From Alphaproteobacteria bacterium (GTDB lineage: Bacteria; Pseudomonadota; Alphaproteobacteria; Rhizobiales; JAKIUO01): DNA of 51,001 nt. The DNA lies in contig JAJRRW010000116.1 in assembly GCA_024279115.1 (NCBI GenBank), positions 1-51,001 on the forward strand, given 5' to 3'. The translations under genes were made by a program, and so were the position numbers. How positions within the stretch are numbered: the first letter of the stretch is position 1; every line of letters starts with the position of its first letter. This document shows, piece after piece, positions 14,403 to 24,477 of this stretch. The notes below the pieces were generated by a model, which was not told where the DNA came from, did no database searches, and saw only the letters and a program-made list of their open reading frames with translations.

Positions 14403-14852
14403 ATGGCAGAATTAAGAGCAAAATTTTGGGAAAATCTGCCGCTTGCGGATCTCACTCAAGCGGAATGGGAGGCCTTGTGTGATGGTTGTGGTCTGTGCTG
14501 TCTCGTCAAGCTGGAAGATGAGTATACGCACAAGATCTATTTCACCAATCTCGTTTGCTCCTTGCTGGATATAGAGTCATGTAATTGTTCCGACTATGGA
14601 AATAGGCGTGCCGAAATGCCGGACTGTCGCCCCATTACCTTGCAGACCCTGGAAGAAATTGAATGGTTGCCGCCCAGCTGCGCCTATCGTTTGCGCCGCC
14701 AAGGCAGGCCGTTATTTGCGTGGCACCCGTTGGTCTCTGGAGATAAAGACACTGTTCACAAGGCAAATATTTCCACCCGTGGCTGGACGGTCAGCGAAAA
14801 AGGCGTGCCGATTGACGACTATGAAGACTATCTGATCAGTGATCCGTTTTAG
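14403..14852 (+). CDS. YcgN family cysteine-cluster protein
   Basis: A 149-residue protein of the YcgN/UPF0260 family. It has the metal-binding-like cysteine cluster 'CDGCGLCCLVKLEDE' near the N-terminus (C residues spaced C-x2-C-x2-CC), then 'CSLLDIESCNCSDYGNR' and 'MPDCRPI', and the family segment 'LPPSCAYRLRRQGRPLFAWH'. The function is unknown, and the cluster suggests zinc or iron-sulfur binding. It is the last ordinary chromosomal gene before the GTA-like cluster. Its stop is 38 bases before the promoter-like sequence that precedes the terminase genes. Confidence 0.9.
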   Translation: MAELRAKFWENLPLADLTQAEWEALCDGCGLCCLVKLEDEYTHKIYFTNLVCSLLDIESCNCSDYGNRRAEMPDCRPITLQTLEEIEWLPPSCAYRLRRQGRPLFAWHPLVSGDKDTVHKANISTRGWTVSEKGVPIDDYEDYLISDPF

Positions 14853-14890
14853 CAAAATAGGAATAAAAGCAAATAATAGGAAAATAATCC

Positions 14891-14919
14891 TTGACAGCGT
14901 CGCGCTGTTTGTGTAGGTT
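14891..14919 (+). promoter_or_regulatory. Sigma70-type promoter upstream of the GTA-like cluster
   Basis: TTGACA (14891-14896) and TAGGTT (14914-14919) are separated by 17 bases, an almost ideal housekeeping promoter. Transcription would begin near 14926, about 70 bases before the GTG proposed for the small terminase gene and about 170 bases before the terminator inside that gene. Confidence 0.6.
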
Positions 14920-14995
14920 CATGGTAGATCAACAAAAGTGCGCGGGGATGACGGCGCGGTTTTGTGATTGCAGGGATAATACTGGTGGTGAGTTT

Positions 14996-15379
14996 GTGTC
15001 TTTGAAATCAAAACAAAAGCCTGCAACGAACGAGCAGTTTAAAAAGCGAAAAAAAGTGAATAGCAACAGCCGGGATCGGATATCCCGGCTTTTTTTATGG
15101 CTGGATGAAACACTTGTGTTTTTAGAGCACCGTCATTTGCAAACAGATGAAGCGCTTACCTCGGCTGAACATGAAAAGGATGCGCGAACCATGATTTCCC
15201 TCATCCGGGTCTATGAAAAACTCGTGGAGATGACAGAACACCTTGATCAAAAAAAGCCGGGCGCAAGTCTCGATCTCAAGGGATATGATGCCGCCGAGAC
15301 GGAGCAAATGCGCCTCGAGATTGCGCAGCGTATTGAGCGCCTGCAACGGCAAAACGAGCAATGCGAGAGCGACGAATAA
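14996..15379 (+). CDS. GTA small terminase-like protein (g1)
   Basis: About 127 residues if GTG 14996 is used (preceded by 'ggtggtgag'). The start is uncertain: a later GTG at 15116 would give a protein of about 87 residues. The N-terminus is very basic (KKRKKVNSNSRDR). The C-terminal half is helical, with 'AEHEKDARTMISLIRVYEKL' and 'EQMRLEIAQRIERLQRQ', a pattern seen in small proteins preceding the large terminase in RcGTA-like clusters. In RcGTA the g1 protein is the small terminase that feeds DNA to the packaging motor. It overlaps g2. An intrinsic terminator hairpin lies within its 5' part, so the upstream promoter may mostly make a short RNA. Confidence 0.6.
   Translation: MSLKSKQKPATNEQFKKRKKVNSNSRDRISRLFLWLDETLVFLEHRHLQTDEALTSAEHEKDARTMISLIRVYEKLVEMTEHLDQKKPGASLDLKGYDAAETEQMRLEIAQRIERLQRQNEQCESDE
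15068..15096 (+). terminator. Intrinsic terminator inside the 5' part of g1
   Basis: A nine-base perfect stem (AGCCGGGAT at 15068-15076 with ATCCCGGCT at 15082-15090) with a five-base loop is followed directly by seven Ts. With the promoter at 14891 it would bound a transcript of about 170 bases. It lies inside the reading frame assigned to the small terminase. Confidence 0.75.
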
Positions 15380-16634
15380 TCTAAGCGATGAAGAGCTGCT
15401 GGCGATTTCTTTTGACTGGCAGCTATGGGCGCGAGAAGATCAACTGCCTCCCCTTGGTGACTGGCATACCTGGCTGGTCTTGGGGGGCAGGGGATCAGGA
15501 AAAACCCGCACCGGCGCGGAGTGGGTCCGCGGCCTCGCCCTTGGTCTGCCCGGTTTTTCCGATAAGCCGATCGCCCGCATCGCGCTGGTCGGCGAGACGC
15601 TGGAAGATGTGCGCTCCGTGATGATCGAGGGAGAATCGGGCCTGCTGGCCGTGCACCCCAAACATCAGCGCCCGCATTTTGAAAGTTCAAAACATTTGCT
15701 CACCTGGCCCAATGGCTCCATCGCGCAAATGTTTTCAGGCAATCGCCCAGATGGCTTGCGCGGTCCCCAGTTTGCCGCCGCCTGGTGCGATGAATTGTGC
15801 AAATGGCGCTATCCGCAAGAGACCTGGGACATGCTGCAATTTGCCTTGCGCCTTGGCCAGAGACCGCGCCAGATTGTCACCACGACGCCGCGCCCCATTG
15901 CTCTGTTAAAGCAATTGCTGAAAAGCGAGGGGGTCTGTATTGACCAAAGCAAGACAAGCGTCAACAAGGCTTTTTTGGCAACAGGTTTTGTGGAGCGGGT
16001 CAACAGGCAATATGGCGGCACCCGGTTGGGGCGCCAGGAACTTGACGCCGAAATTCTGGATGATCGGATTGATGCCTTGTGGCACCGCGCCCAGCTCGAC
16101 CAGTTGCGCACCAAACAAACACCAGAGCTGACGCGCATTGTCGTCGCCATTGATCCGCCCGTCACCTCGCATGCCAATTCGGATGCCTGCGGGCTGATTG
16201 TTGCGGGTTTGTGCGAGCAAGGGCACGGCTATGTGTTGTCAGATCTGACGTTACAAACAGCCTCGCCTCTGCAATGGGCGCGCGCTGCGGTCAATGCTTA
16301 TCATCGTTTTGAAGCCGACCGCATCGTCGCCGAGGTTAATCAGGGCGGCGAAATGGTCGAGACGGTGATCCGCCAGATCGACAGATCGGTGGCCATCACC
16401 TCGGTACGGGCCACACGTGGAAAATATATCAGAGCGGAACCGGTCGCGGCTCTTTATGAACAAGGCCGGGTGCACCATGTGGGCTCTTTGCCTTTATTGG
16501 AAGATGAATTATGCGATTTTGGCCCCGGCGGCCTCACAAGTGGCAAAAGCCCCGACCGGCTTGATGCGCTGGTCTGGGCGCTCACCGACCTGATGCTCAA
16601 AGGGGGCGTGGAGCCAAGGGTGCGCAATTTGTAA
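15333..16634 (+). CDS. GTA/phage large terminase (g2)
   Basis: About 433 residues. It is the packaging motor ATPase/nuclease of the GTA-like particle, homologous in order and motifs to RcGTA g2. The N-terminal 'SFDWQLWAREDQLPPLGDW' is followed by Walker A 'LGGRGSGKTRTGAEW' (near residues 50-64) and the Walker B region 'AAAWCDELCKWRYPQ'. A C-terminal RNase H-like nuclease domain has 'IVVAIDPPVTS', 'DRIVAEVNQGGEMVE' and 'KSPDRLDALVWALTDL', whose acidic residues coordinate metal. No ATG suits the start. TTG 15333 is used, overlapping g1 by 47 bases, and the exact start is uncertain. The gene is intact. In RcGTA packaging is headful-like and non-specific, which is inferred here from family only. 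Confidence 0.92.
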   Translation: MSACNGKTSNARATNNLSDEELLAISFDWQLWAREDQLPPLGDWHTWLVLGGRGSGKTRTGAEWVRGLALGLPGFSDKPIARIALVGETLEDVRSVMIEGESGLLAVHPKHQRPHFESSKHLLTWPNGSIAQMFSGNRPDGLRGPQFAAAWCDELCKWRYPQETWDMLQFALRLGQRPRQIVTTTPRPIALLKQLLKSEGVCIDQSKTSVNKAFLATGFVERVNRQYGGTRLGRQELDAEILDDRIDALWHRAQLDQLRTKQTPELTRIVVAIDPPVTSHANSDACGLIVAGLCEQGHGYVLSDLTLQTASPLQWARAAVNAYHRFEADRIVAEVNQGGEMVETVIRQIDRSVAITSVRATRGKYIRAEPVAALYEQGRVHHVGSLPLLEDELCDFGPGGLTSGKSPDRLDALVWALTDLMLKGGVEPRVRNL

Positions 16635-16776: not shown

Positions 16777-18069
16777 TTACCCCATGGCCTGATTGAGGTC
16801 TTTGGCAATGTCGGTGGCGTCTTCGATGCCGATGGAGACGCGAATGACTTCGGGGCCAGCGCCAGCTTTGACCAGTGCTTCTTCGCTAAGTTGCGAATGG
16901 GTTGTGGAGGCCGGGTGCACGATCAGCGACCGAGTATCGCCAAGATTGGCCAGATGCGTGAACAGTTTGACATTGTTGACAAGGCTCTTGCCGGCATCAT
17001 AGCCGCCGGTCAGTCCAAAGGTGAACACGGAGCCAGCGCCTTTGGGCACATATTTTTGAGCCAGTGCATGATTGGCATGGCTTTCAAGGCCTGAATAGTT
17101 GACCCAGGCGACACGGCTGTCTTTTTCGAGCCATTTGGCAACCGCCAGGGCATTGTCGCAATGGCGCTGCATGCGCAAAGGCAGGGTCTCGATACCATTC
17201 AAGATCAAAAAGGCATTCATGGGAGCGATGCAGGGGCCAAGATCGCGCAAAGATAAAACGCGGGCCGCAATGGCAAAAGCAATATTGCCGAAGGCTTCGC
17301 CGAACACCTCTGCGAGCACCATATTATTATAGCTTTCGCAAGGCTGGCTGAGCGTTGGAAATTTATCGCTGGCCATCCAGTCGAAATTGCCGCCATCGAC
17401 GATCATGCCGCCCATGGAGTTGCCATGTCCGCCAAGGAATTTGGTCAAGGAATGAACGATGATATTGGCGCCATGTTCAAACGGGCGACACAGGTAAGGG
17501 GTGGCCATTGTATTATCGACGATCAGCGGTACACCAGCTTTTTGGGCGACAGCGGCGATGGCTTCGATATCGGTTACGAGACCGGCGGGATTGGCGATGG
17601 ATTCGATGAAAATGGCTTTGGTTTTGTCACTGACAAGGGCTTCAAAGCTGGCCGGGTCCTGAGTATCGGCCCATTGCACGCCCCAACCGAATTTTTTGAA
17701 AGACTGGGAGAATTGATTGATGGAGCCACCATAGAGCTGGCGCGCCGCGATGATTTCATCCCCTGGTTCCATGAGATTGTGAAAGACCATCAGCTGGGCA
17801 CCATGGCCAGATGCGGCGGCAACAGCGGCGGTGCCGCCTTCAAGGGCTGTGACGCGTTTTTCGAGCACATCTTGTGTGGGGTTCATGATGCGCGTGTAGA
17901 TATTGCCAAATTCTTGCAGGCCAAACAGGCGCGCCGCGTGATCTGCATCTTGAAAGGCATAAGCGGTGGTCTGGTAAATCGGCGTGGAACGCGCGCCGGT
18001 TGTTGGGTCGGGGGCAGCGCCGGCATGAATGGCGCGGGTATTGAAGGCCTGGGGAGTATCGTCTGACAT
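16777..18069 (-). CDS. metY: O-acetylhomoserine aminocarboxypropyltransferase / sulfhydrylase (MetY type)
   Basis: A 430-residue PLP enzyme of the Cys/Met metabolism family. It makes homocysteine (or methionine) from O-acetylhomoserine and sulfide or thiol. Landmarks are the start 'FNTRAIHAGAAPDPTTGAR', 'PIYQTTAYAF', 'YTRIMNPTQDVLEKRVTALE' and 'ASGHGAQ'. The PLP-binding lysine is in 'HSLTKFLGGHGNSMGG' (Lys near residue 210), and the end is 'VSIGIEDATDIAKDLNQAM'. The full length and all motifs are present, so it should be active. The start at 18069 (MSDDTPQAF) is the family start; the frame is open 21 codons further. The position is remarkable: it lies antisense between the large terminase and portal genes of the GTA-like cluster, splitting what is normally a continuous operon. 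Confidence 0.93.
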   Translation of the reverse strand: MSDDTPQAFNTRAIHAGAAPDPTTGARSTPIYQTTAYAFQDADHAARLFGLQEFGNIYTRIMNPTQDVLEKRVTALEGGTAAVAAASGHGAQLMVFHNLMEPGDEIIAARQLYGGSINQFSQSFKKFGWGVQWADTQDPASFEALVSDKTKAIFIESIANPAGLVTDIEAIAAVAQKAGVPLIVDNTMATPYLCRPFEHGANIIVHSLTKFLGGHGNSMGGMIVDGGNFDWMASDKFPTLSQPCESYNNMVLAEVFGEAFGNIAFAIAARVLSLRDLGPCIAPMNAFLILNGIETLPLRMQRHCDNALAVAKWLEKDSRVAWVNYSGLESHANHALAQKYVPKGAGSVFTFGLTGGYDAGKSLVNNVKLFTHLANLGDTRSLIVHPASTTHSQLSEEALVKAGAGPEVIRVSIGIEDATDIAKDLNQAMG

Positions 18070-20569: not shown

Positions 20570-21786
20570 ATGACAGACTATGAAGACAAGGCGGCACCCG
20601 GTACGGATGTGGCGGGGGCGTTTGATGAGTTCATGCATGCTTTTGAAGAGTTTAAAAGCACCAATGATGAGCGGCTTGAACAGGTTGAAAAACGGGTCAG
20701 CGCCGATGTGGTGACCGAGGAAAAACTGGCCCGTCTCAACAAGACAATGGATCAAATCGTTGCAAAGTCGGTGCGTCCACCACTTGCCGGGGGAGCGCCA
20801 AATTCTGTTGCCGGCCTGCAGCACAAATCGGCCTTTGAAACCTATATGCGCAAGGGAGAGGCGGGCAATCTGCGCGCCCTGGAAAAAAGGCCCTGTCCGT
20901 TGGATCAGATCCAGATGGTGGCTACCTGGTGCCAAGCGAGACCGAAAATGCCGTGATGCGCTCGCTCAAGGATATTTCCCCCATTCGCGCCATTGCTGGT
21001 ATTCGCCAGGTCTCTGGCACCAGTTTCAAGAAACCGTTTTCCATCTCGGGACCAGGAACCGGCTGGGTAGGGGAAAGCGCCGCGCGCCCCGAAACCACCT
21101 CGCCAAGTCTGGCGGAGCTGACGTTTCCAACCATGGAGCTGTACGCCATGCCAGCCGCGACCTCGACCCTGCTCGATGATGCGGCGGTCAATGTGGATGA
21201 ATGGATCGCCGAAGAAGTGCGTATCGCCTTTGCCCAGCAGGAAGGCACGGCCTTTGTGTCAGGTGATGGTATCAACAAGCCAAAAGGATTTTTATCCTAT
21301 GCAAGGGTCGCCAATAGCAGTTGGACCTGGGGCAATCTTGGCTATGTGGCAACTGGTGTGAGCGGAGGCTTTGCGGCCACCGATCCGTCGGATAATCTCA
21401 TTGACCTTATATATAGTGTCAAATCCGGGTATCGCGGCAATGCTCATTGGGTGATGAACCGCTCAACCCAGGCGCAGATACGCAAAATCAAGGATGTGGA
21501 CGGCAACTATATCTGGCAACCAGGTACGCGGCTTGGCGAGGCCCCCACCTTGATGCACTTCCCGATCACCGAAAGTGAAGATATGCCAGATATCGCCGCC
21601 GACAGCGCGTCCATTGCGTTTGGTGATTTTGGCCGCGGCTATCTCATTGTCGATCGTATCGGTCTGCGGGTGCTGCGAGACCCTTACAGCTCCAAACCCT
21701 ATGTGTTGTTCTATACCACCAAGCGTGTGGGCGGCGGCGTGCAGGACTTTGAGGCGATCAAGCTGATGAAGTTCGGAATTAGTTAG
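20570..21786 (+). pseudogene. GTA major capsid protein (g5), one-base frameshift
   Basis: An HK97-fold capsid protein, RcGTA g5 type. The first frame gives the coiled delta domain ('FMHAFEEFKSTNDERLEQVE' and following) and the start of the capsid domain, up to 'GNLRALEK'. The rest ('SETENAVMRSLKDISPIRAI' to 'DFEAIKLMKFGIS') lies in the -1 frame. At the joint the sequence has six As (20883-20888). A seventh A would restore 'ALEKKALSVGSDPDGGYLVP', the expected family text, and a protein of about 405 residues. So a one-base deletion in a homopolymer is the simplest reading, either real or a sequencing slip. A programmed -1 shift is less likely, as the heptamer A AAA AGG is not a good slippery site. 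Confidence 0.88.
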
Positions 21787-24017: not shown

Positions 24018-24363
24018 AGTTTTGTGAGTAGCGAGTAAGTATCCGAGTTGTTTGACGTGTATGCCCCCCGCGAATATAATAATTTGATCCGGGCCTGTTC
24101 TTCCTGTTCGTTCCAGATGGCAAGCTGAAGGCCCTGGTGACCTGGTAGTGCGTTGTAGCGAGTAAGAGTAAAGAGTAGTTGCAAGTTTTTGTTGTGCGTA
24201 TGAGTGAATTGAGTAGTTGCAGTTTGTTGCCGCGTTGAGTTCTCAAAAACGTTATTTTACCTCTCGTTTATGAGGGATGAAAATGTTGAGCGTTATAAAG
24301 GTTTGCGTCTTGCTTCGTATCGCTGGTTTGCGTATTGACTGAACGAAGAATTGATCTTGTGAA

Positions 24364-24451: not shown

Positions 24452-24477
24452 AAGGGTCCCTTTTGGGGACCCTTTTT
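24452..24477 (+). terminator. Strong intrinsic terminator 3 between g8 and g9
   Basis: A nine-base perfect stem (AAGGGTCCC with GGGACCCTT) around a five-base loop is followed by five Ts. It is the clearest of three consecutive hairpins and would separate the g1-g8 and g9-g15 transcripts. Confidence 0.75.

Follow-up and report, generated by a model that had tools for sequence, protein, structure and literature searches.

At the lambda promoter PR', RNA polymerase pauses at +16/17, and PR'-tR' makes a short terminated leader RNA. We analysed a 51,001-nt stretch of a draft alphaproteobacterial genome (contig JAJRRW010000116.1, hereafter the window) in which a promoter, an inverted repeat in its spacer and an intrinsic terminator stand at the head of a cluster of gene transfer agent (GTA) structural genes, and we consider it likely that these parts form a GafZ-dependent leader switch of the lambda-PR'/AlpA type. 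A demonstrated GTA anti-terminator is GafZ of Caulobacter crescentus, which requires an inverted repeat between the −35 and −10 elements and enables polymerase to pass both terGTA and E. coli rrnB T1, and the same promoter becomes independent of GafYZ once it is given a near-consensus −35 (PMC11150451). In Pseudomonas aeruginosa, the AlpA system requires CACGAT at −1 to +5; its binding element sits between the −35 and the −10, and the terminator that it overcomes begins at +54 (PMC9371919, PMC7969949).

The promoter block and leader terminator of the window

The GTA cluster begins about 15 kb into the window and runs g1, g2, an inverted metabolic gene, portal, protease, capsid and connector. 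This gene order is RcGTA-like, with Pfam matches to Terminase_6, Phage_portal, Peptidase_S78 and Phage_connect_1 and a capsid identified by reading. The parts at its head are as follows.

14877-14890, + strand: AT-rich conserved block TAGGAAAATAATCC, directly 5' of the −35 (per-column information over 51 aligned sites, profile alignment)
14891-14896, + strand: −35 element TTGACA (T0 and C4 each in 100% of 51 sites)
14894-14908, + strand: inverted repeat ACAGCG-TCG-CGCTGT within the spacer (51-locus consensus CAGCGTNACGCTG; its place matches the Caulobacter GafZ-binding element, ZBE)
14914-14919, + strand: −10 element TAGGTT after a 17-nt spacer (most relatives TAGGGT or TAGGTT)
14926, + strand: predicted transcription start A, 7 nt past the last −10 base, placed by the conserved A and by lambda PR' in the same frame
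14925-14930, + strand: place of the −10-like (sigma-pause) hexamer, TAGATC in the window (conserved A kept, final T not)
14939-14942, + strand: TGCG, a pause motif of consensus type near +14 to +17 (window letters; TGYG common in relatives)
14926-15096, + strand: predicted terminated leader RNA of 171 nt, from the predicted start to the terminator (fold −48 kcal/mol, z-score −2.0)
14996-15379, + strand: g1, small terminase, likely starting at GTG 14996 (GGTGGTGAG upstream) or GTG 15056
15068-15096, + strand: intrinsic terminator, a 9-pair hairpin at 15068-15090 and a T run to 15096 (kept in 5/5 genus members)
15447-16634, + strand: conserved part of g2, GTA large terminase (Terminase_6N 2.4e-26, Terminase_6C 2.2e-22)

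The first-pass annotation of this DNA had placed a promoter TTGACA-N17-TAGGTT at this site with a start near 14926, and both the hexamers and the predicted start agree with that placement; the inverted repeat between them went unmentioned there. The −35 is perfect, the −10 matches at 3 of 6 positions, and the pair is unremarkable on its own; a generic promoter scan missed it because of the poor −10. The hairpin tops the list of terminator-like sites between 10 and 20 kb, a list whose length (13) is close to the shuffle mean of 12.4. It is through conservation that promoter and terminator exceed chance. Profile R1, built on 50 of the 51 promoter sites described below, scored the window block at 58.9 bits (E = 1.7e-17, the window being one of the 50 profile sequences), the next place in the window reached E = 0.26, and a class-wide profile search gave a single match in the window's own genome, at this site. 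The AT-rich block next to the −35 is a possible UP element or activator contact, and the spacer inverted repeat is proposed, from its sequence and place, as a loading site of the anti-terminator GafZ.

The terminator also stood up as first described, including its position inside the g1 reading frame; of its nine pairs six are G-C, the loop has five bases and the T run reaches 15096. With its hairpin at about +143 to +165, it is an intrinsic terminator of the kind that a Q/AlpA-type promoter carries shortly downstream. Hairpin and T run are present in all five genomes of the genus, with 97.8% of pair cells standard and one genome short of one pair; three pairs vary, each on one side only (wobble) and none on both. 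The hairpin also encodes g1 residues RDRxxRLFL, but conservation at the protein level alone, which the first-pass annotation had named as evidence against its reading, is not what we found. Codons of invariant residues were identical across the five genomes at 5 of 5 positions in the stem or T tract and at 9 of 28 in the rest of g1 (p = 0.008), the five compared codons being those of the seven hairpin codons that fall in the stem or T tract, picked after inspection.

The start of g1, which the first-pass annotation had proposed to settle by conservation, was narrowed in this way. In relatives G001-G003, stop codons and a Shine-Dalgarno-like GAGGA site place it 24 nt ahead of the hairpin codon; the window candidates are GTG 14996 and GTG 15056. 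We rejected TTG 14891 as the start, which sits inside the −35 and lies outside the place indicated by the stop codons of relatives.

Conservation of the block and linkage to GTA genes

We looked for the promoter block in 60 regions from other genomes, each covering some 2 kb ahead of the GTA large terminase (TerL) and picked by TerL match alone, with most families represented once or twice, and added the window; exclusion of G002, whose contig starts inside the leader, left 60 usable loci. The block was present in 56 of them, comprising 51 found by mismatch count at 17-nt spacing, with the −10 and the letters after it taken into account (≤4 mismatches, minus the coding-sequence matches L113 and L115, plus L086 kept by eye) and five divergent ones found by profile (E ≤ 3.2e-7). 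By profile it was absent from G011, G033 and G025 and left only a weak trace in G055. Over the 51 loci the consensus is TAGGAAAANAATCC-TTGACA-GCGTNACGCTG-N6-TAGGGT, followed by a post-start A (98%), a T four bases on (78%) and then TGYG. The spacer dyad is conserved in these 51 loci, as a sequence element between −35 and −10 of the Q/AlpA type whose binding is itself predicted. Pairwise covariation of its arms was only partial, and different but intact palindromes occur at its place in L064 (CACCGCAGCGGTG) and L113 (ACACCGTACGGTGT), as expected of a two-fold site.

We also took 69 sites on 68 IMG/VR contigs (L151-L218), picked by an exact match to the element's 17-mer, such that only features outside the 17-mer count there. 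GTA linkage was assigned by tblastn with the window proteins: 46 of the 69 sites had GTA structural genes ≤4.5 kb downstream, 21 were not GTA-linked (20 for the terminator test, one being too short), and two were too near a contig end. An ad hoc 'full element' rule gave 42 of the 69. Many of the IMG/VR contigs catalogued as viral are in fact GTA clusters.

Features downstream of the 17-mer followed GTA linkage. With the −35 starting at 0, the conserved A at position 35 was found in 50 of 51 order sites, and the −10-like hexamer with both A35 and T39 (about −1 to +5) in 40/51 order sites, 36/46 GTA-linked IMG/VR sites and 0/21 non-GTA sites. TGYG was found in 37/51, 30/46 and 1/21 of these sites, respectively, for a background of about 0.05. 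Leader terminators, defined as a hairpin plus T tract with free energy (dG) ≤ −12 within about 300 nt past the −10, occurred in 28/51 order loci, where 30 rounds of shuffling gave 5.9 on average and 9 at most, and in 3/44 matched stretches upstream of the element. Among GTA-linked IMG/VR sites they were found in 35 of 46 (shuffle mean 6.1, maximum 10), and in none of the 20 sites not linked to GTA. In many GTA-linked sites, some tens of nt separate the start site from the terminator, and in several loci the terminator, judged by eye, ends before g1.

The block was also found ahead of parts of clusters other than the terminase. Portal was the first downstream GTA match at 11 IMG/VR sites, contig L198 carries one element copy ahead of the terminase and another ahead of portal, and G018 has a copy with a terminator ahead of a detached downstream part of the cluster, in which the capsid was recognised by reading.

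Across the order, the 17-mer with ≤1 mismatch was present in 165/397 genomes and its reversed control in few. Both the 17-mer and TerL were listed for 67 genomes, and in 43 of these the 17-mer precedes TerL by 515-3019 bp in the same orientation. Class-wide, a profile search with strict filters found the block in 10/385 genomes, and an exact-pattern search in 3/327, one of which (G408) has a TerL match downstream. We rejected the idea that the element is a general phage promoter, as IMG/VR sites with the conserved downstream block adjoin GTA-type TerL, portal, protease or capsid (46/69); a search of 50,697 phage records gave one significant match (E = 1e-3), to an 18-kb record from sewage whose TerL is GTA-like.

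Copies were also seen elsewhere in genomes. In G039 and G114, which belong to one genus (L058, L059, L143, L144), the 17-mer (≤1 mismatch) occurs 8 and 10 times at places other than TerL, and a terminator-like hairpin immediately follows at least one of these copies (L059). In another genus, copies of the block in L137 and L142 (G022, G132) stand ahead of a gene that by reading is nitronate-monooxygenase-like, which suggests a wider regulon.

GafZ homologues, known promoters and rival readings

The window's own genome encodes homologues of both GafY and GafZ, the latter directly after the former.

L136 2535-3362, − strand: DUF6456 protein (GafZ homologue), 275 aa (PF20057, 4.7e-46)
L136 3359-3859, − strand: DnaA-type helix-turn-helix gene (GafY homologue; PF08299, 2.2e-16)

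This is the same split GafA arrangement as that reported for Hyphomicrobiales (PMC9638019), which we infer to be the order studied. Among 397 genomes of the order, 309 have DUF6456 and 275 the terminase, and of the TerL loci, the element accompanies 56 of 58 where DUF6456 occurs and 0 of 2 where it does not (p = 0.0034). What the DNA sequence itself shows is which parts there are, how they are spaced and conserved, and that they go together with GTA genes and with GafZ (DUF6456). A GafZ gene beside the promoter was considered and rejected, as none was found in the IMG/VR stretches examined; a search of solved structures for GafZ gave one match (E = 0.036).

Among the closest known systems is the Caulobacter GTA promoter, with its GafY, GafZ, IHF and terGTA: a GTA cluster, a dyad between −35 and −10, GafY/GafZ homologues and a terminator to bypass are common to both, as are a long 5' leader and a first gene with a mis-annotated TTG start upstream of the transcription start site (PMC11150451). 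The Caulobacter −35 is degenerate and GafY-dependent, whereas that of the window is TTGACA, and the available part of PMC11150451 gives no −10-like pause element for the Caulobacter promoter, whereas a −10-like block is conserved in the order studied here. Where a Caulobacter-type promoter has IHF and distant GafY sites, the feature seen here is the AT-rich block next to the −35. The Caulobacter ZBE pattern matched at least 120 stretches of IMG/VR, and in the 81 sites inspected no GTA gene was found in a promoter-like position.

Lambda PR'-tR' with Q shares a TTGAC-type −35, a 17-nt spacer, a loading site in the spacer, a −10-like hexamer at the start, which is weak in the window's genus, and an early pause place (J02459; PMC6606751). 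The short terminated leader RNA predicted here would be a further likeness. With the −35 at 0, lambda has its −10 at 23-28, AACGAT at 35-40 and TTCG with C at 50, and the window has A35 and TGCG with C50 (J02459). Lambda differs in having no GafZ-like anti-terminator and in that the Q gene lies beside the promoter, whereas the GafZ gene lies elsewhere; 21Q, moreover, uses direct repeats where an inverted repeat is found here (PMC6606751). The AlpA promoter alpB with terminator tB is alike in its element between −35 and −10, in its −10-like sequence, CACGAT, for which the GTA consensus has CACGCT/CATGGT, in a terminator within tens of nt and in a chromosomal self-lysis programme; its binding element differs from the GTA dyad (PMC9371919, PMC7969949). 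The spacing and parts of the GTA block match lambda PR' and the AlpA promoter, at both of which the antiterminator, loading between −35 and −10 while sigma holds the polymerase paused, goes on to overcome a terminator in the leader.

In the scheme that we favour, promoter activity, pausing, GafZ binding and antitermination are all predicted. Polymerase would start at about 14926 and, unaided, halt at the 15068-15096 hairpin, giving the 171-nt RNA instead of a GTA transcript. The GafZ homologue, whose gene lies at another place in the genome and which probably acts together with GafY, would bind the inverted repeat between −35 and −10, load onto polymerase held at the early pause near +16 and take it through the leader terminator and later ones into the cluster. 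Since the −35 is by nature consensus here and a near-consensus −35 makes the Caulobacter promoter independent of GafYZ, control may be exerted mainly at termination, with initiation left unregulated. For the order as a whole, we lean, with less assurance, towards a phage-late-promoter logic for GTAs in which a self-firing promoter, a loading dyad, a sigma-dependent pause and a leader terminator are combined, silence is kept by termination, GafZ is a pause-loaded factor of the Q class, and split clusters carry a second copy of the promoter before their second half.

Several observations weigh against this account. By our rule, no terminator was present within about 300 nt in 23 of the 51 order sites, and a profile search found no second copy of the element before portal in the window, where the cluster resumes past the antisense gene at 16777-18069. 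The hexamer of the window's genus is weak (TAGATC, with the A present and the T absent). Some genomes hold many copies of the element far from TerL, and G025 and G055 have DUF6456 and no clear element at TerL. In the covariation check that the first-pass annotation had suggested, the hairpin is kept in 5/5 genomes and shows no double compensatory changes, and with one-sided wobble changes alone proof by covariation is absent. The window dyad ACAGCG-TCG-CGCTGT is unlike the Caulobacter ZBE, GCGCCCG-CTGGCGC, so the window promoter may work like a Caulobacter promoter rather than be one; and terGTA consists of three 150-bp repeats after the first gene, whereas here a simple intrinsic terminator lies in the leader or first codons (PMC11150451).

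An unlikely alternative is a repressor that shuts the promoter off by binding the inverted repeat as its operator, while the terminator gives secondary insulation from read-through. A dyad placed between −35 and −10 occupies a classical operator position, and intact alternative palindromes such as those of L064 and L113 would suit a repressor site; a plain operator, however, leaves the conserved post-start block (the −10-like hexamer and TGYG) and the leader terminators unexplained, and at the sole experimentally mapped GTA precedent the dyad place belongs to GafZ and to no repressor (PMC11150451). Still less probable is attenuation coupled to translation, in which ribosomes starting g1 prevent the hairpin, so that the leader senses translation and needs no dedicated anti-terminator. 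The first-pass annotation had proposed an attenuator that is opened either by antitermination or by ribosome passage, and it is the first half that gains from the order-wide promoter and leader terminator, the spacer dyad and the GafY/GafZ genes. An initiating ribosome can reach the hairpin in genus relatives, where it lies some 20-24 nt past the likely g1 start, yet the terminators that begin some tens of nt past the transcription start in many GTA-linked sites, and those that by eye end before g1 in several loci, speak against translation as the switch, which also leaves the dyad unexplained.

That the hairpin merely ends transcription of the upstream CxxCxxCC-protein gene (14403-14852), or is an accident of coding, we regard as very improbable. 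This gene does lie on the same strand and ends about 216 nt before the hairpin, but terminators are enriched downstream of the element (28/51) and not upstream (3/44), and an accident of coding would not account for stem codons identical in all five genomes. Least credible of all is a trans-acting small RNA with its own function, which the first-pass annotation had offered as a possibility and which was not supported. The RNA is bounded by a promoter and a terminator and its folding energy falls slightly under that of shuffles (z-score of only −2.0), but Rfam gave no match in nine sources, conservation outside the promoter block and hairpin is weak, members of the genus differ widely in the length and sequence of the leader, and in other families it is only tens of nt long. 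The 171-nt RNA is best read, from the sequence, as the aborted product of the leader terminator in a GafZ-dependent switch.

Neighbouring features and meaning for GTA control

Further features of the cluster were noted alongside the leader. In other families g1 has an N-terminal part that resembles a helix-turn-helix; by reading of the upstream frames, this part seems to be missing from g1 of the window's genus. The metabolic gene between g2 and portal (16777-18069, − strand, antisense) encodes a pyridoxal phosphate (PLP) enzyme of Cys/Met metabolism (PF01053, 1.2e-127); a PF01053 gene also lies beyond TerL and antisense to it in G001, G002 and G004, while G003 has none there and its portal match begins 45 bp past the TerL match. 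The major capsid frame (20570-21786, + strand) is broken into two overlapping frames near an A run at about 20883-20888, for which assembly error, decay and frameshifting are indistinguishable alternatives. Inside the cluster, a near-consensus promoter TTGACG-17-TATAAT (11/12) lies at 24052-24080 (+ strand), and about 370 nt past it a terminator-like hairpin with a 10-pair stem at 24452-24474 (+ strand). Processive antitermination would be needed there too, although the number of such sites equals the chance expectation.

GafZ anti-termination of the Caulobacter GTA and the Q/AlpA promoters are already known. We found no description in the open-licence literature of the conserved GTA leader module, that is, a loading dyad, a pause-like block and a leader terminator, the last lying within the first g1 codons in this genus.

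An open question is how most cells keep GTA production at zero while a few release it. If the proposed leader switch is right, the gate in a large bacterial group would be a leader terminator at a promoter with a consensus −35, with the short leader RNA predicted in non-producing cells, and GafZ could be assayed across many species with a simple reporter test. The combination of dyad, pause and terminator would then serve as a DNA signature for GTA control points, split clusters included, and the Q/AlpA mode of control would extend to a widespread domesticated-phage system.
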